Below are positions 18,713 through 40,977 of a stretch of 64,000 bases of DNA, in pieces (the stretch's first letter is position 1; every line of letters starts with the position of its first letter). The notes beneath the pieces are model-generated. The model was not told the origin of the DNA. It saw only the letters and a program-made list of their open reading frames with translations, and ran no database searches. The position numbers were made by a program, and so were the translations under genes. The stretch is from Flavobacterium chryseum. Its GTDB lineage: Bacteria; Bacteroidota; Bacteroidia; Flavobacteriales; Flavobacteriaceae. The stretch spans positions 62,001-126,000 of the forward strand of contig NZ_SNWW01000006.1 of assembly GCF_004362015.1 (NCBI RefSeq). Reading direction: 5' to 3'.

Positions 18713-18924
18713 ATATCAAATATAAAGAAAATAAATTATTGTTTGCTCTTGCACTGATTATCTGAATGGTTGGAAAAGATTATTTTTTCTATTTATATTA
18801 TTGAATTTCAAATAAATACACTTTTCATAGATGTTAATTTCATAACAAAACCCGATTTTATTGTAAAGAAAACTACTTGTATATACTTAGTTTTAAATCA
18901 GTTAACAAACTAAACAATTAAATC

Positions 18925-19146
18925 ATGGAAAACTCAAACCTTCACAACAAGGGAAGTCTTTATAAATGCCCATATCAAAGTCAGGTATACGGCACGAATA
19001 AAAGCGAGTTATGCTACAGAAAACCTTATCAGGGAGACTGGGGAGACTGGGATGATGTTCCTGAAACTAATATTCAGGAAGAGAAGGATTTTGATTTGGC
19101 AGAAAAAGAAATTTTGAAGAAAGTTTTAAAACACAACAAAAAATAA
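18925..19146 (+). CDS. Small protein of a KCP...GDWGD paralogue pair (member 1)
   Basis: A 73-residue protein starting MENSN. It has KCPYQ at residues 14-18, a second cysteine ~17 residues later, the short motif GDWGDWDD around residues 38-45, and a charged, lysine-rich end. No signal peptide or membrane helix. The next gene encodes a relative sharing MENSN, KCP and GDWGD. Both ATGs lie in the same context (AATCATGG / CATCATGG) after AT-rich leaders. I do not recognise the family. The KCP motif recalls the N-terminus of catalase-peroxidases, but this is too short to be evidence of relation. Confidence 0.72.
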   Translation: MENSNLHNKGSLYKCPYQSQVYGTNKSELCYRKPYQGDWGDWDDVPETNIQEEKDFDLAEKEILKKVLKHNKK

Positions 19147-19283
19147 CTAATTCCTTTTATACTTTTTTTCTACAAGCAATCAAATACAATGTTAATCTGA
19201 TAACAATTAGAAATTATTTTATAAGACAAAATAGTGTTATCCCCTTAATTTTAAACTTAGTAATAATCTTAAAACAATACATC

Positions 19284-19514
19284 ATGGAAAATTCAAATCA
19301 ATACACTGCAGAAGAACTTCAAAAATGTCCATTTCATAATCCACAGAGCGCAGCGGCCAGCGATGATGATCCGCGAGAAAATGCCAATACTGGAGACTGG
19401 GGCGATCTGGATGAGGACGATGAAGCCGGAACAAATCCCGATCGTAACGAGCAAGGTGGAAATGACAATTCAGGAGGTGCAGGAAGTTCTGGAAGTGCAG
19501 CTACAAACAGCTAA
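19284..19514 (+). CDS. Small acidic protein of a KCP...GDWGD paralogue pair (member 2)
   Basis: A 76-residue protein starting MENSN with KCPFH at residues 14-18 and GDWGDLDEDDEA in the middle. The last 30 residues are Gly, Ser, Asn and Asp rich and probably disordered. It is clearly related to the preceding gene in its first half but the tails differ: basic in member 1, acidic and glycine-rich here. The two genes are 137 bp apart, each with its own AT-rich leader, and a good terminator follows this one. The function is unknown. Confidence 0.72.
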   Translation: MENSNQYTAEELQKCPFHNPQSAAASDDDPRENANTGDWGDLDEDDEAGTNPDRNEQGGNDNSGGAGSSGSAATNS

Positions 19515-19528
19515 AACTGATACAACTT

Positions 19529-19566
19529 AAAAGCAATAAAATCTTCTTAGGAAGATTTTTTGCTTT
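19529..19566 (+). terminator. Terminator after the small-protein pair
   Basis: A hairpin AAATCTTC-TTAG-GAAGATTT (19539-19560) followed by TTTTGCTTTT, inside a wider AAAAGCA/TGCTTTT pairing. It lies 15 bp past the stop of the second small gene. Confidence 0.85.
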
Positions 19567-19589
19567 TGAACTCTCTCAATACCGTTTTA

Positions 19590-19970
19590 TCAATCCAGAA
19601 TAGTTTTTAAAACCGCAGTTAATTCGGTAAAAGTATTAGGTTTTGTAATGTACGTTTCCGTATCATGAATTATGGATAATTGCTCAGCAGCGGTCTCCGA
19701 ATAACTGGAATATACTATCACACGAATTGGTTCCAGTTTTTTTACTGCTCTTATTTTCTCGATGAATTCATTGCCGTTTAAAACTGGCATATTATAATCC
19801 AGAAAGATAAGGTCCGGTAGGATTTCAGTACTTTCTAAAAACTCTAAAGCCTTAACCGGATTTGTTTCTGCAAGGCACGAAATGTTCTTCTCCAGAGAAT
19901 TGATGGCTTCGATAAATACATCTGCATCATCACTGTCATCATCAATCAACAATATATTTTTATATAACAT
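19590..19970 (-). CDS. Receiver-only response regulator (Rcp1-like)
   Basis: A 126-residue receiver domain with no output domain. The phosphorylation site is intact: acidic pocket D10-D11-D12, phosphoacceptor D58 (LIFLDYNMP), the YSS switch serine and a conserved K before P (ITKPNTF). It is of the type with a DDD..DDADVF N-terminus that pairs with PAS or phytochrome kinases of the SHDL[KR]EP class. No kinase gene is adjacent; similar regulators lie at 33076, 40280 and 41599. It probably passes phosphate within a phosphorelay or acts by protein contacts. Confidence 0.93.
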   Translation of the reverse strand: MLYKNILLIDDDSDDADVFIEAINSLEKNISCLAETNPVKALEFLESTEILPDLIFLDYNMPVLNGNEFIEKIRAVKKLEPIRVIVYSSYSETAAEQLSIIHDTETYITKPNTFTELTAVLKTILD

Positions 19971-20070
19971 GGCGTTTATTTTTTTATAGTTCTTATATAA
20001 ACCGACTGGTCGTTCCGCATTCGGAAAGAATCAGTCGCGGTATTTTTTATCATCCTCTGTGTTACAACCT

Positions 20071-20102
20071 AAAAAACCTGCACTTAAGAAAGTACAGGTT
20101 AG
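20071..20102 (-). terminator. Terminator of the DUF892 gene
   Basis: An imperfect hairpin (AACCTGCAC / GTACAGGTT) followed on the minus strand by TTTTTT. It lies 37 bp after the stop of the ferritin-like gene. Confidence 0.75.
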
Positions 20103-20138
20103 GTGTCTTAAGTCAGAATTAGAATAAACTTTTAAAAT

Positions 20139-20732
20139 TTATTCCTGATCCTGATCTTCATCATTAGCATTAAAATTGATTGTATTATAAGCAGCTTCTG
20201 TTAATAAGGTATCTGCTTCTTTTTCTTCAGCCAGCGTTTTTTCCAGTAATAATACTGCATCATCCTCGCCCAAAGTTGTAGCAAAGGCCGCTAGCGTACC
20301 GTAAGTTGCAATTTCGTAATGCTCAATTTTTTGTGATGCTGCAATAATTCCGGCATCACGCACAGCTCCAACTTCTGTTTCCTCCATTATGCCTTCACCT
20401 TCCTTGATAAGGCCTTCCATAGCATCGCATTTTTTGGCTGATGCTTTCTCACCAATTAATGAGAAAACCTGTTCTAACCTTTTTACCTGTTCTTCTGTTA
20501 CAGTAAGATGGTCATTGATCGCAGTGATAAGATTTTCTGAAGTAGCGTTTTTAGCCATTTTTGGCAGTGCTTTCGTCAATGCTTTTTCAGCCCAGTAAAT
20601 ATCTTTTAAAGAATCTACAAATAATTCTCTCAGACCTTCTGCTGCAGACGATTTTGCTTTTACAGTTCCATTAGCACTTTTTGATTTACTTTCGCTTTTC
20701 GCAGCTGTTGTTTTTTTTGCGGCAGTTTTCAT
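20139..20732 (-). CDS. DUF892 ferritin-like protein (YciE/YciF type) with Lys/Ala-rich N-terminal tail
   Basis: A 197-residue protein. Residues ~35-185 form the four-helix DUF892 domain (LRELFVDSLKDIYWAEKALTKALPKMA, then HLTVTEEQVKRLEQVFSLIGEKA and KIEHYEIATYGTLAAFA), with Glu/His residues where ferritin-like folds bind a di-metal site. YciE/F proteins are stress induced in enterics. Unusual is the N-terminal tail of ~33 residues, almost only K, A, T and S, resembling histone-H1-like tails. ATG at 20730-20732 is preferred. Its C-terminus is acidic (NDEDQDQE). Confidence 0.9.
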   Translation of the reverse strand: MKTAAKKTTAAKSESKSKSANGTVKAKSSAAEGLRELFVDSLKDIYWAEKALTKALPKMAKNATSENLITAINDHLTVTEEQVKRLEQVFSLIGEKASAKKCDAMEGLIKEGEGIMEETEVGAVRDAGIIAASQKIEHYEIATYGTLAAFATTLGEDDAVLLLEKTLAEEKEADTLLTEAAYNTINFNANDEDQDQE

Positions 20733-20857
20733 AATTTTTGATTTTTTGATTATACCCAAATTTACAACGCACTTTTAATCCTATTTTACACAATCCTATT
20801 TAGCTTTTACAGTATTCAAACATAAAGTAATTAAAATCAACACTTTATAATACCCAA

Positions 20858-23045: not shown

Positions 23046-26000
23046 ATGGAAACCGCTGAACATCAAAAAAATCAAATTATAATCCCGTCTTTTCCCGTAG
23101 TAGGTATTGTCACGGAAGCATCTGAAATTGATGTCGTAAAACAAATTCTTTCCGGTATTCCTTCTGATTCCGGCATGGCCATAATTGTTATGGAAAATCT
23201 GGATGCAAATCAGCATGCCGATTTGACACAACAACTAGCGACACATGTTGGCATGCCCGTTCTTGAGATTGTAAATACTGTAGAACTACTGCCTGACCAT
23301 GTATATGTTATTCCCGAAAAAAACTTTTTGATTCTGGAAAACGGAATTCTAAAACTAAAACCCGTTATAAGAGGAAGCAGAATCAATAATTGTCTGGACA
23401 TTTTCTATAATGCTCTAGCTCAGAAATATGAAAGCTACACTATTGGACTGCTTGCGTGCTGGTCTCCAATAGATGGAGCTGCCGGATTGAAAAATATAAG
23501 GGAACACGGCGGCGCAGCTGTGTCTGCTGTTACCAAGATCGGTTTCGAATACAATAAAGCAAACGCAGAGTTTATCGATTTCTTTACTGATCCCAAGGAA
23601 ACTGCTATAAAACTACTGGAAATCAGAGAGAGCTATCTCGTTAACCGTGCTTATGAAGAAAAAGAAATTTCGGCAGAAGAGCATGCGTTCTTCGAGCAGA
23701 TTGTGGAACTTATTGTCTTAAAATCAGGTACAAATTTCCATCATTATAAAGAGCAAACCCTTCGAAGGAGAATTGCCAAAAGAATGGTGATTACCAAACA
23801 AGAAAGCATAGAACGTTATCTGAACCTGCTTAAAAACAAAAGTGCAGAGCAGGATTTGCTTTTTAACGACCTTCTTATTCCGGTAACATATTTTTTTAGA
23901 GATCAGCTTTTTTTTGACAGTCTGCCTAAAGTTGTTTTCCCTTCCCTTGTAGAGTCTATGACGGGAAAAGAATTAAGAATATGGTCAGCCGGATGTTCTA
24001 CCGGTGAGGAAGCCTATTCTCTGGCAATTTGCCTCGATGAATATCTGGAACAGACGAATAACAGCGACATTACGATCAAAATTTTTGCTTCGGACCTTTC
24101 TGAAAAATGTATTGATAAAGCCCGTCTTGGCGTATATACGCATCAGGACCTGAAAAATATTAGTGAAGAAAGACTGGCAAAGTACTTTAACAAAAAAGAA
24201 AGCGGTTATCATGTCAGCAAGCTCATTCGTGATTTATGCGTTTTTGCCGTGCATGATCTTACCAAAGATTTTCCATTTTCTAAAATTGATTTTGTAGCCT
24301 GTCGTAATGTTTTAATCTATTTTGATACTGATCTGCAAAATCACGTACTTTCCTCGTTTCATTATGCCCTTAAAGAGCATGGTTTTCTTTTCTTAGGAAA
24401 ATCCGAATCAGCTGTACGTGCAGAAGAGCTTTTTGCTACGGTAGAAAGACAGGGAAAAATATACAGACGCAAAAATTCTGATGTTAGATTTAGCAAAGAC
24501 ATGTCTGGCTTTACGGCCAACAAACCGATAAAACATATTGAGGAACTAGCAACTACTGTAACCAATTATAAAAAAATTGCTGCAGATACACTTCTTGAAC
24601 AATATTCTCCGGCTGCCGTTGTGGTTAATGAAGATTTTGAAATCGTGCATTTTCATGGTGATACGAGTGCTTTTTTACAGCCATCTGCGGGTAAACCGAG
24701 CTTTAATATTATAAATATGGTTCCGCATGAAATACGTTTTGCACTTCGAAATGCCATTTTAAAAGTGCGAAATGAAAAAAGAAATGTTGTTGGAGAACCT
24801 ATTGTGGTAAAAAATCAGGCATTCTTAACTTCATTTGAAGTGGTATATCTCGCAGCTAATCTGGATCTGTTGCTAATCATCTTTTGCAGAAAAACAATTT
24901 CGGGTGCAAAAACAGCGCACACAAGCAATATACAAAGCGGAAAAGAAACAGAAAGCCAATTATTTCAGCTTCAGCATGATTTTAAACACCTGACAGAAGA
25001 GCAGCAGATTTATTTTGAGGAACTTCGTTCTACCAACGAAGAACTTTTGCAAAGAACCGAAGAACTTCAGTACATCAATGAAGAATTGGAAACATCTATA
25101 GAAGAACTTCTTTCTAATAATGAAGAGCTGTCATGTACCAATGATGAGCTACAGAACCATAGAAGACAATTGGCATCGATGAGAAATTTCTACGAATCAA
25201 TTGTAAAAACAATTCATGAACCGCTTTTAATTATAGACCATAATTTTATTGTACACAGCGCAAATCCGGCATTTTACAACTATTTTAATACTCGTGAGGA
25301 GCTTACCGAAGGAATTTTGATTTTTGAAATTGGAAATTCAACCTGGAATACTTCTGAATTTAAAGAATCGGTATTAAAAAAAATAAGCAAAGAACAACCG
25401 GTTGAAAATGTGAAAATACAATTTAGCGCAGCATTGTCCGTAAAAAAAGTGATGCTAATCAACGCAGCACCTATTACAGATTCAATGCCGGAAGGCCTGA
25501 TTCTGATTGCACTGGAAGATATTACAGATTTAGAACAAAGTAATGAAGCTTTACAAATAAAAAACGAAGAGCTTATAAACCGAAGCAGACAGCTTGAATC
25601 TTTTACCGCAGTGGCGGGAGAGCATCTTCTGGATCCAGTTAGAAAAATGTATATGTTCGGTAAAAAAATTATCGATGACGAACCGGAATTATCAGCGCCT
25701 GCCAAACATAATGTAAAACGTTTGCTGCATTCAGCCGTGAACATGAGCCAGCTTATTGAAGATTTGGTTACGTATTCGAAAATTAACTTTGCGGAAAAAA
25801 AATTCAAGAAAACAGATCTAAACGTACTTGTCAAAAAAGCCTTAAATGATCTCAAAAAAGTGATTAGCGAGCATAATGCCGTAATTTCAGTAGATCCTTT
25901 ACCGCCAATGAAAATTATAGCATCGCAATTTCATATGCTGTTTACAAATTTAATTTCTAATGCGTTAAAGTTCGCACAACACGATACAGTCCCTCAAATA

Positions 26001-26321
26001 AAAATCAGTTTGCACCATCCGGATCAGGAAGAATTCAACAGCCTTGGCGCTGATCCTGAAACGGATTATATGATACTCTCGGTAAGCGATAATGGAATTG
26101 GATTTAAAAAAGATTTTGAAAACCTCATTTTTGATCCCTTCTTTCGCCTGCAGAGCAACGACCAGCATTACGGAAGTGGACTGGGACTGACTTTGGTACA
26201 GACTATTGTATCTAACCATAACGGTTTTGTAAAAGCTTCCAGTGAACCTGGAAAAGGAACAACACTCTACTTGTGTCTTCCATTAGATAAATCATTAGCC
26301 GAAACATATGGTCAGGATTAA
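23046..26321 (+). CDS. CheB-like/CheR/PAS/histidine-kinase fusion with degenerate catalytic sites
   Basis: A 1091-residue cytosolic fusion. Residues ~15-195 align with CheB methylesterase but lack the Ser of GASAGG (GIVTEASE instead) and the active-site His, while the Asp of SPIDGAAGL remains. Residues ~220-490 are CheR: FRDQLFF and the SAM motif IWSAGCSTGEEAYSLAI (~312). A long coiled coil (EELRSTNEELLQRTEEL..) follows, then a PAS domain (~715-830) and a kinase core. In the H-box, the expected SHDL reads GEHL, so the phosphoacceptor His is replaced by E859 with H860 next to it. The ATPase part keeps its N box, DNGIGF and GSGLGL. It may methylate a partner or act as a pseudokinase scaffold. 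A hairpin terminator follows. Confidence 0.9.
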   Translation: METAEHQKNQIIIPSFPVVGIVTEASEIDVVKQILSGIPSDSGMAIIVMENLDANQHADLTQQLATHVGMPVLEIVNTVELLPDHVYVIPEKNFLILENGILKLKPVIRGSRINNCLDIFYNALAQKYESYTIGLLACWSPIDGAAGLKNIREHGGAAVSAVTKIGFEYNKANAEFIDFFTDPKETAIKLLEIRESYLVNRAYEEKEISAEEHAFFEQIVELIVLKSGTNFHHYKEQTLRRRIAKRMVITKQESIERYLNLLKNKSAEQDLLFNDLLIPVTYFFRDQLFFDSLPKVVFPSLVESMTGKELRIWSAGCSTGEEAYSLAICLDEYLEQTNNSDITIKIFASDLSEKCIDKARLGVYTHQDLKNISEERLAKYFNKKESGYHVSKLIRDLCVFAVHDLTKDFPFSKIDFVACRNVLIYFDTDLQNHVLSSFHYALKEHGFLFLGKSESAVRAEELFATVERQGKIYRRKNSDVRFSKDMSGFTANKPIKHIEELATTVTNYKKIAADTLLEQYSPAAVVVNEDFEIVHFHGDTSAFLQPSAGKPSFNIINMVPHEIRFALRNAILKVRNEKRNVVGEPIVVKNQAFLTSFEVVYLAANLDLLLIIFCRKTISGAKTAHTSNIQSGKETESQLFQLQHDFKHLTEEQQIYFEELRSTNEELLQRTEELQYINEELETSIEELLSNNEELSCTNDELQNHRRQLASMRNFYESIVKTIHEPLLIIDHNFIVHSANPAFYNYFNTREELTEGILIFEIGNSTWNTSEFKESVLKKISKEQPVENVKIQFSAALSVKKVMLINAAPITDSMPEGLILIALEDITDLEQSNEALQIKNEELINRSRQLESFTAVAGEHLLDPVRKMYMFGKKIIDDEPELSAPAKHNVKRLLHSAVNMSQLIEDLVTYSKINFAEKKFKKTDLNVLVKKALNDLKKVISEHNAVISVDPLPPMKIIASQFHMLFTNLISNALKFAQHDTVPQIKISLHHPDQEEFNSLGADPETDYMILSVSDNGIGFKKDFENLIFDPFFRLQSNDQHYGSGLGLTLVQTIVSNHNGFVKASSEPGKGTTLYLCLPLDKSLAETYGQD

Positions 26322-26333
26322 TTATTAGATAAT

Positions 26334-26376
26334 AAAGATTTGCCACTGCAGAATAACACAGCAGTTTGCAATCTTT
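26334..26376 (+). terminator. Probable terminator after the CheB/CheR kinase
   Basis: A long imperfect hairpin (AAAGATTTGCCACTGC with GCAGTTTGCAATCTTT) 12 bp past the stop, ending in TTTT. Confidence 0.7.
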
Positions 26377-26623
26377 TAAACTTAATGAACATTATGTAAG
26401 AAGTTTTAAAAATTGTATAAAAAACAGTTTTTTCCTATCAATAATTTGCTGGTAAAATATTTCACATAGAAGATAAATGCTGTAAAATATAAGAATAAAG
26501 CTATAAAATTGAATCTCATTTACGACCCAAATATTCAAAGCCGATCTAAAAAATTCGGCCAAAATGAACTTTAATTTTTACTTCTATTAAGAATTTGCTT
26601 ATAAATATAACTATCTTTAAAAA
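26377..26623. other. AT-rich promoter region
   Basis: About 250 bp before the stand-alone CheB gene. It contains AATTGTATAA (26411 region) seen in several other gaps of this window, and TATCTTTA just before the ATG, which resembles a -7 element. No ORF. Confidence 0.35.
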
Positions 26624-27727
26624 ATGATTACAAATCACAACAGCTTTTCCGGAGATCATCCAGAAATAAATAGCAGCTACAATACTGAGGATTATCACAT
26701 TGTAGTGATCGGAGCGTCTGCAGGAGGATTTGAAGCTATTAAAAAGATAGTTGCTGATCTACCGCCCGACTTTCGCCCGCCTGTTTTTATTGTCTGGCAT
26801 ACCGGGGCAGATGTGCAGGGCGTCATGCCCGGAGTACTGAACAAACTAAATTCCATTCATGCCGCACATGCTACTCACAATGAATTGATTAAACCCAATC
26901 GCATTTATATAGCACCGCCAGACCATCATTTATTATTGGAAGACGGTTATATAAAACTGACACACGGGCCAAAAGAAAATTATTTTCGCCCTGCTGTAGA
27001 TCCGCTGTTTCGTTCGGCTGCTTATAGTTACGGAACAAGAGTTATAGGAATAGTACTTTCAGGAGGACTTGACGACGGTACTGCCGGATTGTGGAGGATA
27101 AAAAATAATGGCGGAAGTACAATCGTACAGGATCCTGAAGATGCGGAAGCGCGTTCTATGCCCGAGAGTGCCCTACGGGAAGTTGAAGTCGATTATTGTG
27201 CCCCCGTTTCAGAAATTGCCGGAATACTGACCAAAATAGAAACCGAAGGAATTGACATAAATGCTGTAATAAAAGATAAAAAAACGGAGTTGGAAAATCG
27301 CAGTACAACCGGAGACAAACAAGCCGCAAGAAAATCATTTGAAATGGGAGAACTCTCCCCTTTTACCTGTCCTGACTGCAGGGGTGTTCTTTCTAAAATA
27401 GTAGAAGGCGGCATTTCACGCTATCGTTGTCATACCGGACATGCCTTTTCTGCCGATACACTACTCGCTACACTAAGCCGCAGGGTAGAAAACGACCTTT
27501 ATACGGCACTGGCAGGAATGGATGAAAGTATATGGCTTCTCAATCATATGGGAGATCATTTGGCAGAAATCAATCAAACCCAAGAAGCCGCACTTTACTT
27601 TATTAAAGCAAAAGAAACCGAAGGACATTCTGATTTGGTACGCGGAACAATAAAAAATTATAAGCAGCTTACCAATCCTAAGGTACAGATCGAAGTGAAC
27701 AATTTGAAAAATGAAACAAAATACTAA
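26624..27727 (+). CDS. cheB: Stand-alone CheB-type protein-glutamate methylesterase
   Basis: A 367-residue protein without the N-terminal receiver of enteric CheB. The catalytic triad looks complete: S32 in GASAGG, H59 in VWHTG, and D151 in the SGGLDDGTAG turn. C-terminal residues ~240-290 contain C-x2-C (FTCPDCRGVLSK) and YRCHTGHAF, the zinc-ribbon-like end often seen in this subgroup. The enzyme hydrolyses methyl-glutamate esters or deamidates glutamines. It lies 23 bp before the next CheB/CheR fusion, forming an operon. With no receiver domain, it is not controlled by its own phosphorylation. Confidence 0.92.
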   Translation: MITNHNSFSGDHPEINSSYNTEDYHIVVIGASAGGFEAIKKIVADLPPDFRPPVFIVWHTGADVQGVMPGVLNKLNSIHAAHATHNELIKPNRIYIAPPDHHLLLEDGYIKLTHGPKENYFRPAVDPLFRSAAYSYGTRVIGIVLSGGLDDGTAGLWRIKNNGGSTIVQDPEDAEARSMPESALREVEVDYCAPVSEIAGILTKIETEGIDINAVIKDKKTELENRSTTGDKQAARKSFEMGELSPFTCPDCRGVLSKIVEGGISRYRCHTGHAFSADTLLATLSRRVENDLYTALAGMDESIWLLNHMGDHLAEINQTQEAALYFIKAKETEGHSDLVRGTIKNYKQLTNPKVQIEVNNLKNETKY

Positions 27728-27750
27728 CTTTGTTCCATTCTTAGTATATT

Positions 27751-30700
27751 ATGAAAAAAAACGACTCTGACAGCACTAAAAAAGTAGTAAGACAGTTACA
27801 GCAAAAACCGGATAAAAACGAATTTCTAATTGTTGGAATTGGAGCTTCTGCAGGAGGTGTTCAGGCATTGCAGGAGTTTTTCAGGCAGGTGCCTGTAAAT
27901 ACCGGAATTGCCTACGTAGTAATACTGCACCTTTCTCCTGACCATGACAGCCAGCTTACTGCGGTACTGCAGCGTGAAACCCAATTACCCATTAAACAGG
28001 TCATTGACAAAGAACATATTGAGCCTGATCACGTTTACGTTGTTTCGCCAAACAAACATCTTACAATGGAAGGCAATACTATAATTGCAACTACCAATGT
28101 ACTGATGGAAGAGCGCCGTGCTCCCGTTGACATCTTTTTTCGTACCATGGCCGATGAATATGGTCCGCGTGCAATAGCGGTAATTTTATCCGGCACCGGA
28201 GCCAACGGATCGATGGGGCTTAAAAGAGTAAAAGAACGCGGCGGTGCCTGTTTCGTACAGAATCCGCGTGAAGCTGAATTCAACGAAATGCCCCGCAGCG
28301 CCATTGCTACAAAAATGATAGATGAAGTGCTTCCGGTTTCAAAAATACCGGAGAAAATCATATCCTATAATAACAGCATTGGTGAAATTGAAATTACCGA
28401 TGAGCCGGAAAAACGACCGGACGACCAGCAAAAAGCATTGCGCGAAATTTTCACGCAGCTGCGCATTCGCACCGGACATGATTTTACAAATTACAAACGT
28501 CCTACCCTGCTTCGCAGAATCGAAAGACGCATCAATATAACCGGACATTCTGATCTTCCTTCCTATGCAGCATATATGCATGACAATCCGAATGAACCAG
28601 CCGCTTTGCTGAAAGATCTTCTTATTTCGGTAACTAATTTTTTCAGAGATAAAAAACCTTTCGAAACCATTGAACAGGAAATTCTGCCTTTGCTTTTTAA
28701 AGATAAAACGAGTGAAGATCAGGTAAGAATATGGGTAACGGGATGTGCTACCGGTGAAGAAGCCTATTCGCTTGCCATTCTGTGTGCAGAAATAACACTC
28801 GGTGCCATTGATGCGCCGAAAGTCCAGATTTTTGCCACTGACATTGATGAAGCCGCCGTAGCTCACGCACGAGAAGGTTTGTATACATTAAACGATACTG
28901 CCGATGTTTCTGCCGAAAGACTTAGACGTTTTTTCAATAAAGAAGGCGACATGTACAGGATTCGTAGAGAAATTCGGGAAACCATAATGTTTGCCGCACA
29001 CAATTTCCTTAAAGACCCGCCATTTTCGCATCTCGATATGGTCAGCTGTCGTAACGTAATGATTTATCTGAACCAGACCGCACAGGAAAGAGTAATTGAA
29101 ACGTTTCACTTTGCCTTAAAACCGGGTGCCTTTCTATTTCTTGGTACTTCGGAATCTGTTGACGGGGCAAGCGATCTGTATTCTGTACACAACCGTGAAA
29201 ACCATATATTTCAAAGAAGACAGGTTACGCCGCGCGCTTATCCAATACCGGAATCAACGCCAAGCCTGAATTTTGATAAATTTAAAAATGACGATACATC
29301 TCAGGAACAGGAGAAAAAAATGCTGGACCGTATTTCCTTTGGTGACCTGCATCAGCAGTTGCTTGAAGAATATGCCCCGCCTTCACTTGTTGTAAATGAG
29401 GATTTTGAGATTTTGCATCTTACCGAACGTGCGGGTCAGTTTTTGCAGATTTCAGGTGGCGAACCTTCTAAGAATCTGTTAAAACTTATTAAGCCCGAAT
29501 TGCGACTTGAACTAAGATCTGCGCTCTACCAGTCTGCTCAAAGGCAATCTGCTGTAGAAGCACGTGGATTAAAAGTCAATATTAACGATAAAACCGAAAC
29601 TATCAATGTAAAAGTAAGACCTGTGTTACGCTCAGGAGATACTGCAAAAGGGTTTATTCTGATTATTTTTGAACCCGGAAAAGATGAAACCGGACAGGAA
29701 ATAGTTTTATCTTCGGATGAGCCGCTCGCCAAACAGATGGAAGAAGAACTTATCAGGGTTAAAATCCAGCTGAGAACTGCTAATGAACAGCATGACTTTC
29801 AGGCGGAGGAAATGAAAGCTTCTAATGAAGAACTTCAGGCCATGAACGAGGAACTCCGTTCGGCAGCAGAAGAACTGGAAACCAGTAAAGAAGAACTACA
29901 ATCTATCAACGAGGAACTTCGTACCGTAAATCAGGAACTTAAAGTAAAAATTGAAGAAACCAGTATAGCAAGCAACAACCTTCAGAATATTATAAATTCG
30001 ACAGACATTGGAACTATATTTTTGGACCGAAGTTTCCGGGTAGCTTTATACACGCCGGCAGCAGGTGCAATTTTCAATCTGATTTCTGCCGATTATGGGC
30101 GTCCGCTTACGGATATCACCCATAAACTCGAATATCATGAACTACAGCGCGATGCTGAAACCGTACTTGAAAAATTAAATATTATCGAGAAGGAAGTCAA
30201 CACCGCAGACGGAAATATTTACCTGATGCGCCTGACGCCGTATCGAACAGATGAAGACCGCATTAACGGAATCATAATTTCGTTTATAAATGTAACCGAA
30301 CGCAAACAAACCGAGGAAGCACTTCGATCTGTGGAAGATAAATACAGACTTAAACTAGAACAGCAGGTAGAACAGCGTACTGCAGAGCTTAAACAAAGCC
30401 GCGATCAGTATCTGACACTCGTACAAAACACTCCGGATGTCATTACCCGTTGGGATAAGGATTTGAAACTAATTTTCGCCAATTCAGCTTTTGAAAATAA
30501 AACAGGCGTAAATATTGGGATGCAGCTTGGGAAAACTTATCCGGAAATGGGACAGCCTGCGCAAATCGCGGTACCGTATGCCGAAAGTCTTGAGAAAGCT
30601 TTTTCAACAGGAGAAACAATTGAGCATTTTAACTCCTTTCCTACCCCACAGGGAGAAATTCATTTTTACTCCCGAATAACACCGGAAAGAAATGCTGACG

Positions 30701-32031
30701 GTGAGATTGAAACCATTCTTGCCACAGCCAGGGATATTACAGATCTTAAAAATGCCGCAGAAGAAATTAAAGAGAAACAGGAATTATTTCAGGCTACCAT
30801 GGACAGTTCGCCGGATATGATACAGGTATTTGAGGCTGTTCGTGACACAACGGGCGAAATAACCGACTTCCGTTGGGTTCTAAATAATTACGCTGCAGAA
30901 AAGATATACGGAAATGTTATTGGAGAAAGCCTTCTTACCTTAAATCCGGGTGTTTTAGAAGAGGGAATTTTTGAAACCTTCAGACAGGTTGTAACAACAG
31001 GAATACCGAATCTTTCTGAATTGCATTACAAACATGAACAGTTTAATGACTGGTTCTATCAGTCGGCAGTAAAACTGAATGACGGTCTTGTAACCACAAC
31101 GATAAAAATCACGGCACTCAAAGAAGCCGAGCAGGAAATCAAATCCGGCAGGGAATTTCTTCGTTCCGTGATCGACAGTTCTCTTGATGTAATTCAGGTT
31201 TTTAAAGCTGTGCGTGATGATAATGGCAAAATTACAGATTTTGTCTGGCTGGTACAGAACAGCAAAGGAATGGAACAGAACGATGATGTTATAGGCGAAA
31301 ACCTTCTTGAGAAAAATCCGGGAATTGTTGAAGCAGGTATTTTTGACAGACTTGTACAGGTGGCCGAAACCGGAATACCTGTCGAAATTGAGCAATACTA
31401 TTCGTCTGAGCAGTTTAAAGACAGTTGGTTTTATCAGGCCATCGTTAAACAGGATGACGGCGTGGTAATGACAACCCGAAATATTACCAAACAAATTACG
31501 GCAGAAAAAGAACTGTTGGGCTTAAAAGATGAGCTTGCCAAAAAAGCCAATGACCGTTATCTGGAGCTTTTTAACTCTATAGATGAAGGTTTTTGTATTA
31601 TACAAGTAGAGTTCGATAAAGATGGGAATGCCTATGATTATCGCTTTATAGAGGCAAACAATGCATTTGCAACCCAGACAGGCCTGCATAATGCCGCCGG
31701 TAAAACCATAAAGCAACTTTCTCCTGATCAGGATCAACATTTACTGGAGATATACGGCAGAATTGCTAAAACTCGCGAACCGGAACGTTTTGAAAATCAA
31801 ATTAAAGAAACCGGTTATTATTACGAAGTTTATGCATTTTCAACAGGTAATCCTGAAGATTATCGTTTGGCAGTGCTCTTCAATGATATCACACAACGTA
31901 AAAAGGAAGAAAAGAAAAAGGAACTGGCACAAGAACAGCTTCGCGTATTTGAAGAACGTTCCCGTATAGCACTTGAATCTGCAGGAATGGCTTCATGGGA
32001 CTGGAATGTGAATGAAGATATGATCAGCTGA
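27751..32031 (+). CDS. CheB/CheR/multi-PAS sensor protein, truncated by an in-frame TGA
   Basis: 1426 residues before the stop. Order: CheB (S33 in GASAGG, H60, but N152 where the catalytic Asp of the GTGxDG turn is expected); CheR (~200-480, SAM motif WVTGCATGEEAYSLAI near 330); a long E/L-rich coiled coil (~660-740, SNEELQAMNEELRSAAEELE); then five full PAS domains. PAS 3 (30769-31140) and PAS 4 (31141-31515) are recent duplicates of each other. A sixth PAS begins with ASWDWNVNEDMIS and is cut by TGA at 32029-32031. The frame continues past it through the rest of that PAS and a histidine kinase, so TGG (Trp) to TGA is the likely change. The full product would be 1766 residues. Confidence 0.9.
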   Translation: MKKNDSDSTKKVVRQLQQKPDKNEFLIVGIGASAGGVQALQEFFRQVPVNTGIAYVVILHLSPDHDSQLTAVLQRETQLPIKQVIDKEHIEPDHVYVVSPNKHLTMEGNTIIATTNVLMEERRAPVDIFFRTMADEYGPRAIAVILSGTGANGSMGLKRVKERGGACFVQNPREAEFNEMPRSAIATKMIDEVLPVSKIPEKIISYNNSIGEIEITDEPEKRPDDQQKALREIFTQLRIRTGHDFTNYKRPTLLRRIERRINITGHSDLPSYAAYMHDNPNEPAALLKDLLISVTNFFRDKKPFETIEQEILPLLFKDKTSEDQVRIWVTGCATGEEAYSLAILCAEITLGAIDAPKVQIFATDIDEAAVAHAREGLYTLNDTADVSAERLRRFFNKEGDMYRIRREIRETIMFAAHNFLKDPPFSHLDMVSCRNVMIYLNQTAQERVIETFHFALKPGAFLFLGTSESVDGASDLYSVHNRENHIFQRRQVTPRAYPIPESTPSLNFDKFKNDDTSQEQEKKMLDRISFGDLHQQLLEEYAPPSLVVNEDFEILHLTERAGQFLQISGGEPSKNLLKLIKPELRLELRSALYQSAQRQSAVEARGLKVNINDKTETINVKVRPVLRSGDTAKGFILIIFEPGKDETGQEIVLSSDEPLAKQMEEELIRVKIQLRTANEQHDFQAEEMKASNEELQAMNEELRSAAEELETSKEELQSINEELRTVNQELKVKIEETSIASNNLQNIINSTDIGTIFLDRSFRVALYTPAAGAIFNLISADYGRPLTDITHKLEYHELQRDAETVLEKLNIIEKEVNTADGNIYLMRLTPYRTDEDRINGIIISFINVTERKQTEEALRSVEDKYRLKLEQQVEQRTAELKQSRDQYLTLVQNTPDVITRWDKDLKLIFANSAFENKTGVNIGMQLGKTYPEMGQPAQIAVPYAESLEKAFSTGETIEHFNSFPTPQGEIHFYSRITPERNADGEIETILATARDITDLKNAAEEIKEKQELFQATMDSSPDMIQVFEAVRDTTGEITDFRWVLNNYAAEKIYGNVIGESLLTLNPGVLEEGIFETFRQVVTTGIPNLSELHYKHEQFNDWFYQSAVKLNDGLVTTTIKITALKEAEQEIKSGREFLRSVIDSSLDVIQVFKAVRDDNGKITDFVWLVQNSKGMEQNDDVIGENLLEKNPGIVEAGIFDRLVQVAETGIPVEIEQYYSSEQFKDSWFYQAIVKQDDGVVMTTRNITKQITAEKELLGLKDELAKKANDRYLELFNSIDEGFCIIQVEFDKDGNAYDYRFIEANNAFATQTGLHNAAGKTIKQLSPDQDQHLLEIYGRIAKTREPERFENQIKETGYYYEVYAFSTGNPEDYRLAVLFNDITQRKKEEKKKELAQEQLRVFEERSRIALESAGMASWDWNVNEDMIS

Positions 32032-33051
32032 AATGAAAACCATTACAAACTTCTGGGACTTACACCCGGGAATGGAACCGTAAACGTTTCGTTTTTTGAG
32101 AAGTTCGTACATCCTCATGATAAAAAAACGGTAATAAGTTCGCTGCAACAAGCAGTTGACACAGCTGGGGAATTCATAGCAGAATTTCGCATCCTTCGCG
32201 CAGATAATGGAGCTGAATCATGGATGAAAGGATATGGCAGAACCGTAAGCGAGGATAAAGGAAAGGCATCACGCATCATTGGAGTAATGTTGGATATTAC
32301 AGAACAGAAGCAGTTTACAGAAGAGCTTAGCAGACAGGTTAGCGAAAGAACTGTTGAACTGCAGCGCTCTAATGATGACCTTCGTCAGTTTGCCCATGTT
32401 GCCAGCCATGATCTTAAAGAACCGGTTAGAAAGATAAGAACATTTCAAAATAGAATTTTAGAGGAATTTGGCGATCTGCTTCCGCCGGAAGTTAAATTAT
32501 ACCTGCAGCGCATTGAGTCAGCCGCAGTCCGTATGTATACAATGATTGACGGTGTGCTTCATTATTCAAAACTTGGAAATGAACAGGACCCGCTTGAAAC
32601 TGTAGACCTTAATGAAATCATTGCAGCTATAAAGACCGATCTTGAGATACTTATAGATACTAAAAAAGCATTAATTACAACGTCGAACCTGCCTTCTATA
32701 GAAGCTCATTTTACGTTGGTGTACCAGCTTTTTTACAATCTTATTCTTAACTCGCTGAAATTTGCAAAATCAACAGAACCGTCAAGAATTGAAATTACTT
32801 CTGACCAAATAAGTAATGAAAATGGCAATTATCTCATGATAACCATAACAGATAACGGCATAGGATTTAGACCAGAACAGTCTGAAAGTATTTTTGATAC
32901 GTTCACCAGACTGAACTCTGCCGATAAATATGAAGGGTCAGGCCTTGGACTGGCGCTTTGTAAAAAAATAATGGAACGTTATAAAGGAACAATCACAGCA
33001 ACCGCTGAACCAAATAATGGAGCCGTTTTTACGCTGTTGCTTCCTCTTTAA
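32032..33051 (+). pseudogene. Downstream part of the CheB/CheR kinase: PAS end plus histidine kinase
   Basis: In the same frame as the preceding gene and directly after its TGA. It begins with NENHYKLLGLTPG, the normal continuation of the PAS domain. The first internal ATG is at 32224 (MKGYGRTVSED), which could give a 275-residue kinase by reinitiation. The kinase core is intact: HVASHDLKEPVRKI with the phosphoacceptor His, N box NLILNSLKFA, DNGIGF and GSGLGLAL. A shorter, separately made kinase is possible; otherwise this part is lost, or the TGA is a sequencing error. Confidence 0.8.
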
Positions 33052-33075
33052 AATAAACCTTTTAATTGATAAATT

Positions 33076-33510
33076 ATGTCACACAAAATTTTACTGATAG
33101 ACGACGATGGCGACGACAGGGAATTTTTCCTTGACGCAATTTCTAAAGTTTCATCTCAAGTTTCCTGCACTGTATTAGAAAGCTGCATGAATTTGATTCC
33201 CGATCTTACCGCTGGAAAAATAGAGCGGCCGGATCTTATTTTCTTGGATATTAATATACCCGAAATGAGTGGGTGGACGTGCCTTGCGCTTCTTAAAAAA
33301 AATGCGCTTTTGGCTGACATACCTGTAATTATGTATTCTACTTCGAACCATATCGAAGAAGCCATGAGGGCAAAAAAAGAAGGAGCAGTCAGCTTTTTTA
33401 CAAAACCTTATGATTTAAAAGAGCTTCATGAAATCTTAAAAGAAGTAATCGAACATATGGATGAAAATACACTTACCGAGCTGCATCAAAATTCAGACAG
33501 ATTTTATTAA
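33076..33510 (+). CDS. Receiver-only response regulator (Rcp1-like)
   Basis: A 144-residue receiver with DDDGDD at residues 9-14, phosphoacceptor D58 (LIFLDINIP), the STS switch region and K in FTKPYD. It follows the kinase by 24 bp and is its obvious partner. There is no DNA-binding domain, so it signals by protein contact or in a phosphorelay. It ends the CheB-CheB/CheR operon; a strong terminator follows. Confidence 0.94.
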   Translation: MSHKILLIDDDGDDREFFLDAISKVSSQVSCTVLESCMNLIPDLTAGKIERPDLIFLDINIPEMSGWTCLALLKKNALLADIPVIMYSTSNHIEEAMRAKKEGAVSFFTKPYDLKELHEILKEVIEHMDENTLTELHQNSDRFY

Positions 33511-34015: not shown

Positions 34016-35170
34016 ATGTTAGCAATGAATTATCGCGGTCCACACAGAGTCCGTATAGATTATGATAAGCCCGAGCCCGAAATTCTGCATCCGGGCGATG
34101 CAATAGTACGAGTACTTCGTTCGTGTATCTGTGGTTCTGATCTTCACCTTTATCACGGTTTAGTGCCTGATACGCGTGTGGGATCTACTTTCGGACATGA
34201 ATTTATCGGTGAAATCGTAGAAATCGGTTCCTCCGTAGAAAAAGTCAAAATTGGCGACCGTGTTATGGTTCCTTTTAATATTGCTTGTGGCAAATGCGCT
34301 TTCTGCCGACAGGAATTGTATGGCAATTGCCACGAATCGAATCCTGAAGCTACGGCTGTGGGCGGTATTTTTGGCTATTCGCATACTGCCGGAGGTTATG
34401 ATGGCGGTCAGGCAGAATATGTGCGTGTGCCGTATGCCGATGTTGGCCCGGTGGTAATACCGCAATGGATGGATCCTGATGACGCTGTGCTGCTGACCGA
34501 TGTAGTGCCAACCGGATATCAGGCTGCGGAAATGGGCGGTATACAGCCAGGAGATACAGTTGTTGTTTTTGGTGCAGGACCAATCGGAATTATGGCTGCT
34601 AAATGTGCATGGCTTTTTGGAGCTGGACGCGTAATCATTATCGACCATATCGAATACCGACTTGAATTCGCTGAAAGATATGCGCAGTGTGAAGCTTTCA
34701 ATTTTAATTCAATTGGAGATCCTGTTGTTTTTCTTAAAACAATTACAGATTCTCTGGGAGCCGATGTTTGCATTGATGCCGTAGGTTGTGAAGCGGCAGG
34801 AAATGCCATTAATACACTTACCGGGCGTAGATTATTGTTGCAGGGCGGCTCTACTACGGCGCTTCATTGGGCTATTAATGGAGTTAAAAAAGGCGGCATT
34901 GTTTCTATTGTTGGAGTTTATGGACCAATTGACAGTTTAATTCCAATAGGAAACGTAGTAAACAAAGGTATTACCATTCGTGCTAATCAGGCTTCTGTAA
35001 AACGCCTTCTGCCAAGACTTATTGAGCATGTTCAGTCCGGAGTTCTTAATCCAAAAGGACTGATTACGCACCGTATTCCGCTGGAAGAAGTGTCAGAAGC
35101 TTATCATATCTTTTCTTCAAAACTGGATAATTGTATTAAAACGGTATTGGTTCCGCCAACGGCCAGTTAA
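34016..35170 (+). CDS. Zinc-dependent alcohol/formaldehyde dehydrogenase (MDR family)
   Basis: A 384-residue medium-chain dehydrogenase. Catalytic zinc ligands C39 (CGSDLHLY) and H61-E62 (FGHEF) and all four structural zinc cysteines (C91, C94, C97, C105) are present. The NAD-binding loop is VVFGAGPIGIMAAK. It resembles the glutathione-independent formaldehyde dehydrogenase-like group, common in stress regions of soil bacteria. Two small genes follow at 19 and 30 bp, forming an operon. The substrate cannot be fixed from sequence. Confidence 0.93.
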   Translation: MLAMNYRGPHRVRIDYDKPEPEILHPGDAIVRVLRSCICGSDLHLYHGLVPDTRVGSTFGHEFIGEIVEIGSSVEKVKIGDRVMVPFNIACGKCAFCRQELYGNCHESNPEATAVGGIFGYSHTAGGYDGGQAEYVRVPYADVGPVVIPQWMDPDDAVLLTDVVPTGYQAAEMGGIQPGDTVVVFGAGPIGIMAAKCAWLFGAGRVIIIDHIEYRLEFAERYAQCEAFNFNSIGDPVVFLKTITDSLGADVCIDAVGCEAAGNAINTLTGRRLLLQGGSTTALHWAINGVKKGGIVSIVGVYGPIDSLIPIGNVVNKGITIRANQASVKRLLPRLIEHVQSGVLNPKGLITHRIPLEEVSEAYHIFSSKLDNCIKTVLVPPTAS

Positions 35171-35189
35171 TTAATTTAAAAATAATATT

Positions 35190-35732
35190 ATGATAACAGA
35201 TGAAACAAGCCCTCAGGATTTTGTCAACGACAGACAGGGTGATTATAGCCATATTAAAGGATGGGGTATTGATGCGGATGTGAAAAACGATCCCACGTAT
35301 CCTATAAAAAAACGAAACAACGATGAGCATAAAGGGTATACCTGGGAGCGTCCGGATTTGCAGGATGAAACTGTAGAAGTACTACAATCAGTAGAGCGTC
35401 CTAATCTTACTGCAGTATACGGAACATCAAAACCTCCTAAAGGACTAAGCGGAGCCATACGAAGACTTGCCTACAAATACAGTGAATCGAGTTATGGCAG
35501 ATGGCTTCCGCTTATACTGGCTGACCGTGTCGATATGATAGAAGGAGTTTTGGAAGATTTTGCCAGTGGCCATGTTCCCAATATCCCAAAAGAAGTTGGA
35601 CTCAAATCAGAGTGGAAATACAACAAAAAAGGGTTCTTAGTAAAAGCTGCTGCGGGTATTGTAGTTACAGGCTTAGTGCTTACTTATTTAATGGCATCTT
35701 CTGATAAGAAACCAAAACACAGCGAATCGTAA
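35190..35732 (+). CDS. Hypothetical protein with C-terminal membrane helix
   Basis: A 180-residue protein: a charged N-terminal part (DFVNDRQGDYSHIKGWGIDAD.KNDPTYP), a middle segment (LAYKYSESSYGRWLPLILADRVDMIEGVLEDF), and one hydrophobic helix at ~150-168. The C-terminus is short and basic. I recognise no named family. Its place behind alcohol dehydrogenase and before the SPW protein suggests a membrane-tethered stress protein. Confidence 0.75.
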   Translation: MITDETSPQDFVNDRQGDYSHIKGWGIDADVKNDPTYPIKKRNNDEHKGYTWERPDLQDETVEVLQSVERPNLTAVYGTSKPPKGLSGAIRRLAYKYSESSYGRWLPLILADRVDMIEGVLEDFASGHVPNIPKEVGLKSEWKYNKKGFLVKAAAGIVVTGLVLTYLMASSDKKPKHSES

Positions 35733-35762
35733 ATTTTTTCCATACAAATTAAATAAAACATT

Positions 35763-36119
35763 ATGAAACCAATTGATACAAAAACGCATGGATATATAGA
35801 TTATATCATGGGCATTATTCTTATTGCAGTACCTTTTCTTTTGAAGTTAAATGTCGAAAGTACTCCAAGTATTGTATTATTTGTTCTTGGTGCGGGAGCA
35901 TTAGTATACAGCATATTGACCCAATACGAATTGGGACTTGTAAAGTTAATCCCAATGAACATTCACTTGATGCTGGATATTGCTTCGGGAATATTTCTTG
36001 CTGCATCACCCTGGCTGCTTGGATTTTCAGAGGTCGTTTATCTTCCGCATTTGATACTCGGTTTATTAGAAATTGGAGTGGCCGTAATGACAAATCCAAA
36101 ACCGCGAATTGAATTATAG
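35763..36119 (+). CDS. SPW-repeat-type membrane protein
   Basis: A 118-residue protein with four predicted membrane helices (residues ~12-28, 36-52, 65-82, 92-110). The second half carries ASPWLLGF, the SPW motif; the first half has the related but altered AVPFLLKL. Such small proteins are common in bacteria; their function is unknown. Last gene of the three-gene alcohol dehydrogenase operon, with a terminator 18 bp on. Confidence 0.82.
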   Translation: MKPIDTKTHGYIDYIMGIILIAVPFLLKLNVESTPSIVLFVLGAGALVYSILTQYELGLVKLIPMNIHLMLDIASGIFLAASPWLLGFSEVVYLPHLILGLLEIGVAVMTNPKPRIEL

Positions 36120-36136
36120 ATTTTTTGCAAAAAAAA

Positions 36137-36164
36137 ATAAGCTGCCTCAGGCAGCTTATTTTAA
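36137..36164 (+). terminator. Terminator of the alcohol dehydrogenase operon
   Basis: Perfect hairpin AATAAGCTGCC-TCA-GGCAGCTTATT (36137-36160) followed by TTAA, 18 bp after the SPW gene. Confidence 0.88.
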
Positions 36165-36232
36165 TTATAATCGAAAGTTAAATACTTTCTTCCTCCCATT
36201 CAGGAGTTAAACCCTATTTACGACAGTTGTTT

Positions 36233-36493
36233 TTACAGCGTACCTTCTTTACTGTCTTGAGCATCATGACCTTCCAGTTTAACCAGTTTGTTATAAATAC
36301 CAAATAATAAAAATGGTGATGCCCACTGCCCTACAAACAGCGCAGTTTGGCCTTTCCCTAAAACTTTTAGCGTAAGCGACGCACCCATTGCGGCCACTGA
36401 GGCATATAGGAATAAATCTGATGGTAATTTAGCTGTCTGCTCTTCTATTGCTTTGGCAGTAGCTCCTTCTCTGTGATCGTTTTCTAATGACAT
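36233..36493 (-). CDS. Small two-helix membrane protein (paralogue of 44172)
   Basis: An 86-residue protein with a charged N-terminus, two hydrophobic helices (LFLYASVAAMGASLTLKVL and ALFVGQWASPFLLFGIYNKL) joined by GKGQT, and an acidic C-terminus. It aligns with the protein at 44172 over the helices: LP/VP start, LK.LGKGQ versus SKIGKKQ, F.G...P...GI..K. No known family. It stands alone on the minus strand and runs towards the alcohol dehydrogenase operon. Confidence 0.72.
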   Translation of the reverse strand: MSLENDHREGATAKAIEEQTAKLPSDLFLYASVAAMGASLTLKVLGKGQTALFVGQWASPFLLFGIYNKLVKLEGHDAQDSKEGTL

Positions 36494-37152
36494 AATATTT
36501 TTGTTTAAAATTAATAGGTGAAAAGTAGTTGACTGACATACATGTTTCTTACAGTATTTACAGTCAATCTTACAATATTCCTTAGTTTATAACTTCATTA
36601 TCATTAATTTAAGAAACTGATTAACAGCATTTTGTTTAAGGTTTAATTTGTTTAAATACTTTATAAAAACCGTTCTAAGGATTGAGTTTAGCAACTCGTT
36701 TTTATGGTCAGCAACAAGCTGTTTATCTATCCTGAGAAAAAGCTTATTGGCTAATTATAATATCTGTTTAAATAATTTCCATCCCAATACTTAAACAAAT
36801 ATGGGAATTGTATAAGGTGTTACCGCAATTGTAATAAAGAATTGTAATCACTGTAGCTACATTTGAAAGATTAACCTCAACAGCGATTGTTTTATCTGGG
36901 TTCGCTATTCCTAAAAAATAATTTATAAATACGCGAAAGAAGCTGTTTTGCCCACTTGTACGCATTGAAGCCCACTTATTACTTTTCGCGAAATCCCGCC
37001 CTAACATAAGCAATGCATTAACAAATGTTTATGTAATTTCTATTTTAATAATGCGCTATACGATAGCATGGTAAGACTATAGAAATCAACACATTATATT
37101 AGACACTATCAATAAATTTATTGTTTAGATCAACCAACCGCCAAAAAAAGCC
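36494..37152. other. 660-bp gap: possible small RNA or decayed gene, plus a repeated 20-mer
   Basis: No secure ORF. A minus-strand frame (36768-37013) encodes beta-like sequence but has no good start and may be a gene remnant. A small hairpin (GAGTT-TAGC-AACTC, 36684-36697) followed by GTTTTT looks like an orphan plus-strand terminator. At 36796-36815 lies CAAATATGGGAATTGTATAA, which recurs with one mismatch at 41338-41357. Confidence 0.4.
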
Positions 37153-37914
37153 ATGACTCCTATAAATGCCATAATTATATCTGAAGAAAAGGAAACTTTG
37201 CTCATTTTAAAAAAATTTGAAGAAGAGAACGCTATGATTATGGAAATAATCGGTGATGCTGATAACATTAGCGACGGAACCAATATTATAAAGTCAAAAA
37301 AACCAGACCTTATTTTTCTGGATATTGTACTTGTAGATGATCTTTTCTTTGAAATGCTGGAACAATTAAAATTCAGCATTCCAAAACTGGTATTTGTATC
37401 AGCACAAAAAGACTACGCTATTAAAGCATTTAAGCACAATGCAATTGATTTTTTATTGAAGCCTATTGATTTTAATGCCATAATATTAGCTGTTTATAAA
37501 GTAATTAAAATAAGAGAAATGGAACGTTCTTACCAAAATCAAAAAATTAACAGCATTAATATTTTGAATTCTGCAAATCAATCTAATGATTATGTGGCTG
37601 TTGCATCTTTAGAAAAAATAGAACTAATTCCTATGGCAGAGATTACTTATTGTAAAGCAGATGGAAAATATACTGTTTTTGTTCTTTCAAATGGCAATAA
37701 AATAATGTCATGCCGAAATCTGGGAGAATACAGCAGCATTCTGGACAACGGTTATTTTTTCAGAATACATCATTCGTATATTGTTAATCTTCGTCATCTC
37801 ACTAAGATTTCGAAAAAAGACGGTTATTTCTGTGAACTCTCAAATGGGGCTATTTTACCGGTTGCTAAAAGGCGACAAGATGATTTTAACAAATTTATTA
37901 AGCTTAAAGAATAA
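37153..37914 (+). CDS. LytTR-family response regulator
   Basis: A 253-residue regulator. Receiver at 1-115 with phosphoacceptor Asp in DLIFLDIVLVDD and K in LLKPIDF. The LytTR DNA-binding domain is at ~150-250 (LEKIELIPMAEITYCKADGKYTVF, then FFRIHHSYIVNLRHL). Only one Glu/Glu pair (SEEKE) stands for the usual DD pocket, so phosphorylation may be weak. It lies 56 bp before a PAS kinase on the same strand, its likely partner. Confidence 0.9.
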   Translation: MTPINAIIISEEKETLLILKKFEEENAMIMEIIGDADNISDGTNIIKSKKPDLIFLDIVLVDDLFFEMLEQLKFSIPKLVFVSAQKDYAIKAFKHNAIDFLLKPIDFNAIILAVYKVIKIREMERSYQNQKINSINILNSANQSNDYVAVASLEKIELIPMAEITYCKADGKYTVFVLSNGNKIMSCRNLGEYSSILDNGYFFRIHHSYIVNLRHLTKISKKDGYFCELSNGAILPVAKRRQDDFNKFIKLKE

Positions 37915-37970
37915 AAAAAACCTTACCTTTTTAAAAGTTAATTTCAACCAATACGGACTGAATATTCTCT

Positions 37971-40684: not shown

Positions 40685-40977
40685 AAGATCAAATTTGAAT
40701 TTTTCATGATCCTTTTTTAAAATTTTTGTTTCTTCGAAATTAATCCGATTGTATTCATAGTTTAAGCTATGACTCTGGCTTTTATAATAACCTTATTTTT
40801 ACTAAACACTTATACCTTGTAAAAGTCAGTTATTACTTCGCATTATTTATTTAAAACGCATTCCTTTTAATTTGTATTAACATGTGCTTATTAGCCACTG
40901 CAATTTAAGCAGCAGGTTACTAAACATAATGTAGCAAACAAGCAATGAACAAATTAAACTAACATTTATCTAAATTA
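40685..40977. other. AT-rich spacer
   Basis: About 290 bp without a gene. GATCAAATTTGAATTTTTCATGATC at its start can fold weakly and is followed by a T-run, so it may terminate the regulator gene. Otherwise nothing is seen. Confidence 0.3.

Follow-up and report, generated by a model that had tools for sequence, protein, structure and literature searches.

Putative self-methylating CheB-CheR sensor kinases in a Flavobacterium chryseum genome without detected chemoreceptors

What might the methylation enzymes of chemotaxis act on in a bacterium in which chemoreceptors are not found? We asked this of a locus of Flavobacterium chryseum (assembly GCF_004362015.1) at positions 23046-33510 of a 64,000-nucleotide stretch, here called the window (contig NZ_SNWW01000006.1, positions 62,001-126,000, forward strand). 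CheB, CheR, PAS and kinase domains are joined in the proteins of this locus, and a preliminary description made from the DNA had counted three CheB and two CheR modules there, the same numbers that Pfam gives. With slightly more confidence than doubt, we propose that proteins with the order CheB-CheR-coil-PAS-kinase are sensor kinases equipped with adaptation enzymes of their own, and that they methylate themselves. The features read from sequence are the fused domains, the lack of a match to methyl-accepting chemotaxis proteins (MCPs), CheA or CheW, a conserved predicted helix with Glu-Glu pairs, and the gene neighbourhood.

The F. chryseum assembly (5.01 Mb, 99.96% complete) was searched at E 0.001 and contained no match to MCPsignal, CheW, H-kinase_dim (CheA) or FHIPEP (FlhA); of the flagellar, pilus and gliding genes, the search covered FHIPEP only. 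When the same searches were run on 14 control genomes, MCPsignal, CheW and H-kinase_dim were each positive in seven and FHIPEP in four. The statement in the preliminary description that no CheA, CheW, MCP or flagellar gene is in the window agrees with this result, and the genome search for MCP and CheA genes that it proposed as a check returned zero matches. In total, CheB is matched seven times and CheR five times in the genome; four of the CheB and three of the CheR matches are at four places beyond the window. Across 120 genomes of the family, MCPsignal was matched in 4 at E 0.001, of which one exceeded the cut-off, and CheW in none. Across 296 genomes of the phylum, CheR was matched in 187 and CheW in 88, and 108 had CheR without CheW (91 after weak CheR matches were dropped). 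CheR without CheW is common, and is not special to this F. chryseum strain. Methylation of glutamates outside chemotaxis, a part of the reading in the preliminary description, is plausible because no MCP, CheA or CheW was found in this genome.

The open reading frame (ORF) list and Pfam place protein A, protein B, protein C, the kinase part of C and protein D in this order on the plus strand, with the following features.

23046-26321, + strand: protein A, 1091 residues, CheB-CheR_N-CheR-coil-weak PAS-HATPase_c (Pfam)
23103-23522, + strand: degenerate CheB of A (Pfam, 7e-18; Ser to Glu, His to Asn)
23691-24449, + strand: CheR of A (Pfam, 6e-58; CheR_N present; five scored columns kept)
24996-25151, + strand: Glu-Glu coil of A
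25926-26288, + strand: HATPase_c of A, with the weak PAS before it
26624-27727, + strand: protein B, a free CheB, 367 residues, with CheB as its sole Pfam match (2e-53)
26702-27223, + strand: CheB domain of B, Ser, His and Asp columns kept
27368-27442, + strand: zinc-ribbon-like C-terminal motif of B, CxxC...CxxGH
27751-32031, + strand: first part of protein C, 1426 residues, CheB-CheR_N-CheR-coil-PAS domains, stopping at an in-frame TGA
27832-28359, + strand: CheB of C (Pfam, 1.5e-54; Asp to Asn)
28438-29193, + strand: CheR of C (Pfam, 1.4e-55)
29725-30000, + strand: predicted 92-residue helix of C enclosing the coil
29803-29940, + strand: Glu-Glu heptad coil of C, residues 685-730, the proposed methylation target
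29890-29895, + strand: Glu714-Glu715 of C, the best conserved pair of the coil
29980-30297, + strand: PAS_10 domain of C, directly after the coil (Pfam)
32029-32031, + strand: in-frame TGA parting C from the kinase domains
32224-33051, + strand: kinase part of C, HisKA and HATPase_c (Pfam), in the same frame as C; the ATG at 32224 is a possible restart
33076-33510, + strand: protein D, receiver-only response regulator, 144 residues (Pfam)

Between the CheR and PAS_10 domains of the fusions lies a helical stretch in which Glu-Glu pairs recur every seven residues. AlphaFold placed one helix over residues 659-750 of C (mean predicted local distance difference test score 66.5, predicted template modelling score 0.38, from an alignment of five sequences). 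Segment identities were compared between 8 alphaproteobacterial and 93 Flavobacterium proteins. The coil (columns 686-730) was 65% identical, against 41% for CheR, 39% for CheB, 36% for CheR_N and 15-25% for four flanking segments (linker 15%, PAS_10 23%); in this alignment the coil is conserved across phyla above every other compared segment. The kinase ends were hardly alignable between the phyla, with 5 of 175 pairs extending over 100 positions. Within the coil, the two Glu phases were 77% and 91% identical and the Leu phase 66%; in a coiled coil retained for its core alone, this order should be reversed.

Glu714-Glu715 was present in 119/119 filtered rows and in 10/10 rows from outside the genus, and 569 of 571 successive Glu-Glu pairs were seven residues apart. 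Each of the 119 filtered fusions had at least one relaxed motif EExx[AST][AST], with 400 seen in all versus 72 or 155 after shuffling in two different ways; because the rows are related and were prefiltered for at least four Glu-Glu pairs, these raw coil and motif counts overstate the case for a methylation target. The conservation comparison dropped 3 of 106 enzymatically intact rows for having fewer than four pairs. The coil of C contains three relaxed matches, one of them strict (EEMKAS), and by its residue pattern the coil comes close to the MCP methylation consensus.

Kinases with and without CheR served as controls. At most one in-phase Glu-Glu pair was present in 36 of the 38 CheR-less kinases of the fetched stretches; of the two exceptions, one was the latter half of a split fusion and the other an F. 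chryseum kinase beside a free cheR-cheB pair. Four or more pairs were found in 132 of the 142 kinase ORFs that contain CheR. The ORFs L100 and L075, which were not in the kinase set, had 6 and 7 pairs, each being the second part of a split fusion. Similarly, 20 further fusions from the phylum, picked as long fusions and with 19 from CheW-negative genomes, all had at least four pairs and a relaxed match.

As a coil-bearing F. chryseum kinase lies beside a free cheR-cheB pair, we tested other free cheR-cheB loci. The set comprised this locus and 20 other Flavobacterium loci, the latter being part of the free-CheR rows and picked from the list before their neighbours were viewed. All 21 loci had a neighbouring hybrid kinase with 3-5 in-phase pairs (3 in two, 4 in two and 5 in 17), and the 23 other kinases in these stretches had 0-2; the resulting p value of 5e-13 overstates the case because the 21 loci are related and fall into three gene orders. 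The F. chryseum locus (L038, 3917-7948, contig C2) is an operon-like series of kinase, receiver, CheR and CheB without an MCP, a trans counterpart of the fusions, and this order recurs in other Flavobacterium loci.

The state of the enzymes was assessed by aligning CheB and CheR domains to chains of known structures. The scored columns follow the known structures of CheB and CheR: R299, E337, D364, R434 and N435 of the S-adenosylmethionine pocket of CheR (C numbering), and the Ser, His and Asp triad of CheB. The CheB of A has Glu, Asn and Asp in the triad columns, having lost Ser and His, and is predicted to be dead. The CheR domains of A and C keep all five columns, and that of A looks intact. 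The preliminary description had called A a degenerate CheB/CheR protein, which holds for its CheB and not for its CheR. The CheB of C has Ser33, His60 and Asn152, and the Asn in the third catalytic column is common to the relatives from F. foetidum, metagenome-assembled genome (MAG) E01 and Spirosoma. Judged by its residues, B keeps a full Ser-His-Asp triad; Pfam found no receiver domain in it, and its zinc-ribbon-like tail recurs in the free CheB of Spirosoma, R. acidisoli, Ensifer and one other F. chryseum locus. Enzyme scoring began with 155 distinct ORFs, of which five without the coil region (RhizT1470, L225, L237, L100 and L173) were excluded to leave 150; L237 and L100 carry an altered CRN motif. 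Seven of the 150 fusions were unscorable for CheB and four incompletely scorable for CheR. All five CheR columns were kept in 132 of the 150, A and C included.

The preliminary description had also treated C as a CheB/CheR kinase, a reading at odds with the TGA at 32029-32031, which ends C ahead of HisKA and HATPase_c. The frame continues past the TGA to 33051. The corresponding codon of F. foetidum and of MAG E01 is a sense codon, and the C relative in F. foetidum is an unbroken fusion kinase. As C is cut by the stop, A is therefore, as read from the DNA, the only full fusion kinase at the locus. Among the listed rows from 150 Flavobacterium genomes, a sample in which F. foetidum is not named, the only near full-length match to C was the window's own. 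Identity between C and its F. foetidum relative is 78.7% before the TGA and 67.1% after it, and the non-synonymous share of differing codons is higher after it (111 non-synonymous to 132 synonymous, 111/243) than before (304 to 607, 304/911; Fisher p 0.0005). This pattern is consistent with a recent loss or with C having become two proteins. The faster change after it may mean that kinase regions are simply more variable, and the TGA itself could be a sequencing error.

These observations bear on whether the locus is decaying and its CheB and CheR domains are relics without a catalytic role. The dead CheB of A and the nonsense codon of C, with its excess of non-synonymous differences downstream, are what such decay would leave. 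They are set against the retention of the five CheR columns in most fusions, A and C among them, and the similarity of C to its F. foetidum relative ahead of the stop, and we consider decay highly improbable.

We also compared the presence of the coil with the state of the enzymes. At least four pairs were present in 103 of 106 fusions with intact CheB and CheR, and fusions damaged in both enzymes, including the CRN motif of CheR (one on contig C22 of F. chryseum, L081 and L125), had 0-1. In the F. chryseum fusion (L036, 3809-6592, contig C22) both enzymes are degenerate and the coil is lost, and its nearest relative, L081, is alike. Changes were also placed on a FastTree tree built without the scored columns, which gave three coil losses and two cases of clear CheR damage.

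Several results weigh against self-methylation at the coil. Three fusions (L149, L153 and L154) have 0-1 pairs, with every scored catalytic residue in place. Where a scored CheR column is altered, only 3 of 16 fusions had lost the coil: eleven fusions with CRN changed to CCN all keep 6 pairs, and where the R299 column is lost or unaligned, the A-like protein of F. foetidum has 4 pairs and L211 has 5. Independent pairs on the tree, comparing CheR damage with coil loss, ran in the expected direction in 2/2 cases, too few to test, and joint loss of coil and enzyme is weak evidence. At most three pairs were found in 10 of the 142 kinase ORFs with CheR. The strict MCP-type motif EExxA[ST] was not enriched (21 seen versus 10 or 21 in shuffles), and none of the 21 coils of free-locus kinases fits EExx[AST][AST]. 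The AlphaFold model of C is weak and does not display a meeting of CheR and coil. An association between a dead CheB and fewer pairs was tried and rejected: raw counts were suggestive (3 or 4 pairs in 11 of 21 fusions with a dead CheB, versus 6-7 in most intact fusions), yet independent pairs on the tree gave a null result. As a separate observation, L149, L153 and L154 form one clade of proteins of about 930 residues, with a coil shorter by about 28 residues.

Such results are accommodated if the coil is purely a structural signalling helix that couples N-terminal or PAS domains to the kinase, with its glutamates kept for dimer register or binding and the CheR target elsewhere. According to the accessible text of PMC1592074, the outer surface of signalling helices tends to be acidic, and the lack of pairs in three fusions with intact scored residues, the retention of pairs in 13 with an altered CheR column and the unenriched strict consensus all suit this explanation. 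It accounts less well for the absence of the pattern from ordinary nearby kinases (36/38 and 23/23) and for Glu phases conserved above the Leu phase. We regard a purely structural coil as unlikely, though a serious alternative to self-methylation.

The preliminary description had proposed a closed adaptation loop in which the four proteins A, B, C and D add and remove one another's methyl groups, and gene neighbourhoods bear on this. The four genes are adjacent on one strand; Spirosoma, R. acidisoli and Ensifer also have a free CheB close to a fusion and a response regulator; and the CheB of C has Asn for Asp, so that B could assist it in trans. The genome-contig search gave two relatives, and the nearest one with a species name was Flavobacterium foetidum. 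It keeps relatives of A, C and the receiver, the C relative being followed by a 144-residue ORF, and no free CheB was found in the 21.7-kb stretch around them. A response regulator is annotated after the fusion in Ensifer and S. meliloti, and the free CheB candidate of S. meliloti is only a 195-residue ORF with a weaker match. In Spirosoma a separate ORF encodes the CheB that belongs to the fusion. With all candidates scored, the Flavobacterium genomes G138, G181, G265 and G266 each had a single fusion match. No cross-protein loop is needed, because each intact fusion holds a candidate CheR substrate in its own Glu-Glu helix. The four-protein circuit is unsupported by these comparisons, and we consider it improbable.

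Residues 1-870 of C are 58% identical to plasmid proteins of Spirosoma and 43-44% identical to those of Ensifer or Sinorhizobium, and at most 40% identical to the other listed Flavobacterium fusions. One place covers at least 80% of these residues in 248 plasmid records, and the tree groups C with F. foetidum, MAG E01 and Spirosoma. From these similarities, lateral spread of the subclass of C is likely. A relative at 54% identity (L004) lies on a contig titled Williamsia sp. MAG, a title that looks odd for it.

Elsewhere in the window, at 11899-20759 and 34016-42873, are genes for HSP20, carbonic anhydrase, bestrophin, DUF892, an SPW protein, a zinc dehydrogenase and DUF2243. We take these neighbours to be stress-related, and they hint at a link to stress. 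On the minus strand at 14999-17125 is a 708-residue ORF with zero Pfam matches at 1e-4.

The preliminary description knew of no account of such a circuit, and a close experimental precedent exists. In B. cereus, RsbM methylates the signalling helix of RsbK and holds down the sigma-B stress response; in the accessible text the authors describe RsbM as unpaired to a methylesterase (PMC4574943). The genomic link between RsbK and CheR is credited, in the accessible part of PMC12848376, to de Been et al. Both systems encode a methyltransferase with a sensor kinase outside chemotaxis (PMC4574943). RsbM is a separate protein, whereas the fusions carry CheR as well as CheB in one chain with a putatively methylated kinase and its PAS sensors; CheR is fused to the kinase in A and in the F. 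foetidum relative of C, which is unbroken, and free beside the kinase in L038. The helix before the PAS and kinase domains is here predicted, conserved and a candidate for methylation. RsbK has a CHASE3-HAMP-GAF sensor and a C-terminal receiver, neither of which Pfam finds in A or C; these have PAS domains instead, and the receiver is the separate protein D.

The E. coli MCP Tsr shares with the fusions Glu-Glu pairs, sites seven residues apart, a long helix, and enzymes of the CheR and CheB families, as far as the accessible text of PMC1079850 describes them. The difference from MCP adaptation is that the helix lies here within the enzyme-kinase polypeptide, in a genome without an MCP, CheA or CheW match. 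CheB-CheR fusions of other bacteria, seen in the plasmid matches, share the CheB-CheR-coil-PAS order, and the annotated plasmid rows examined were labelled chemotaxis protein CheB or CheR family methyltransferase. Among the best 25 rows for four of eight proteins, NCBIfam had no model that names the fusion, and PAS sensory_box was the only model past its cut-off. Fusions of cheB and cheR are tabulated in PMC8396549, the accessible text of which gives no mechanism for them. In PMC5108060, multi-receiver kinases are followed by CheR and CheB in nearly all non-Beggiatoaceae examined, two Pedobacter having CheR only; this resembles the trans arrangement of our 21 loci, and the accessible text contains no proposal that the kinase or a coil is methylated. 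The CheB-CheR-PAS-kinase domain order is already known. In the accessible open-licence literature we found no self-methylating CheB-CheR kinase, proposed coil target or cis-trans parallel; subscription papers were beyond this scope, and we do not claim that such a kinase is absent from print.

For the fusions we infer methylation of the coil, its reversal, an effect on the kinase and phosphotransfer to D. In the proposed mechanism, CheR would methylate coil glutamates either in cis or on the partner subunit of a dimer, and the methyl groups would be removed by CheB, either the fusion's own or a free one, with B as a possible extra esterase. By analogy with the action of RsbM on the RsbK helix, the methylation state of the coil may set the passage of PAS signals to the kinase, with the receiver-only protein D as the putative phosphate acceptor. 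The fusions would be a cis form of RsbM/RsbK with an eraser built in, and the trans form would be represented by those Glu-Glu-coil kinases of this genus that have free cheR-cheB pairs as neighbours.

The broader proposal is that a large class of bacterial kinases adapts itself, with methylase, methylesterase, helix, sensor and kinase in one chain and no chemoreceptors; we advance it tentatively, with rather more doubt than confidence. The coil Glu-Glu pairs, foremost Glu714-Glu715 of C, can be named as candidate methylation sites. If the coil is the target, CheB and CheR genes labelled as chemotaxis proteins in non-chemotactic bacteria would be kinase adaptation modules, and receptor-style adaptation would extend to two-component kinases generally. 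Chemotaxis-type adaptation would then be a general kinase add-on, supplied in cis or in trans, of which MCP adaptation would be just the best known case.

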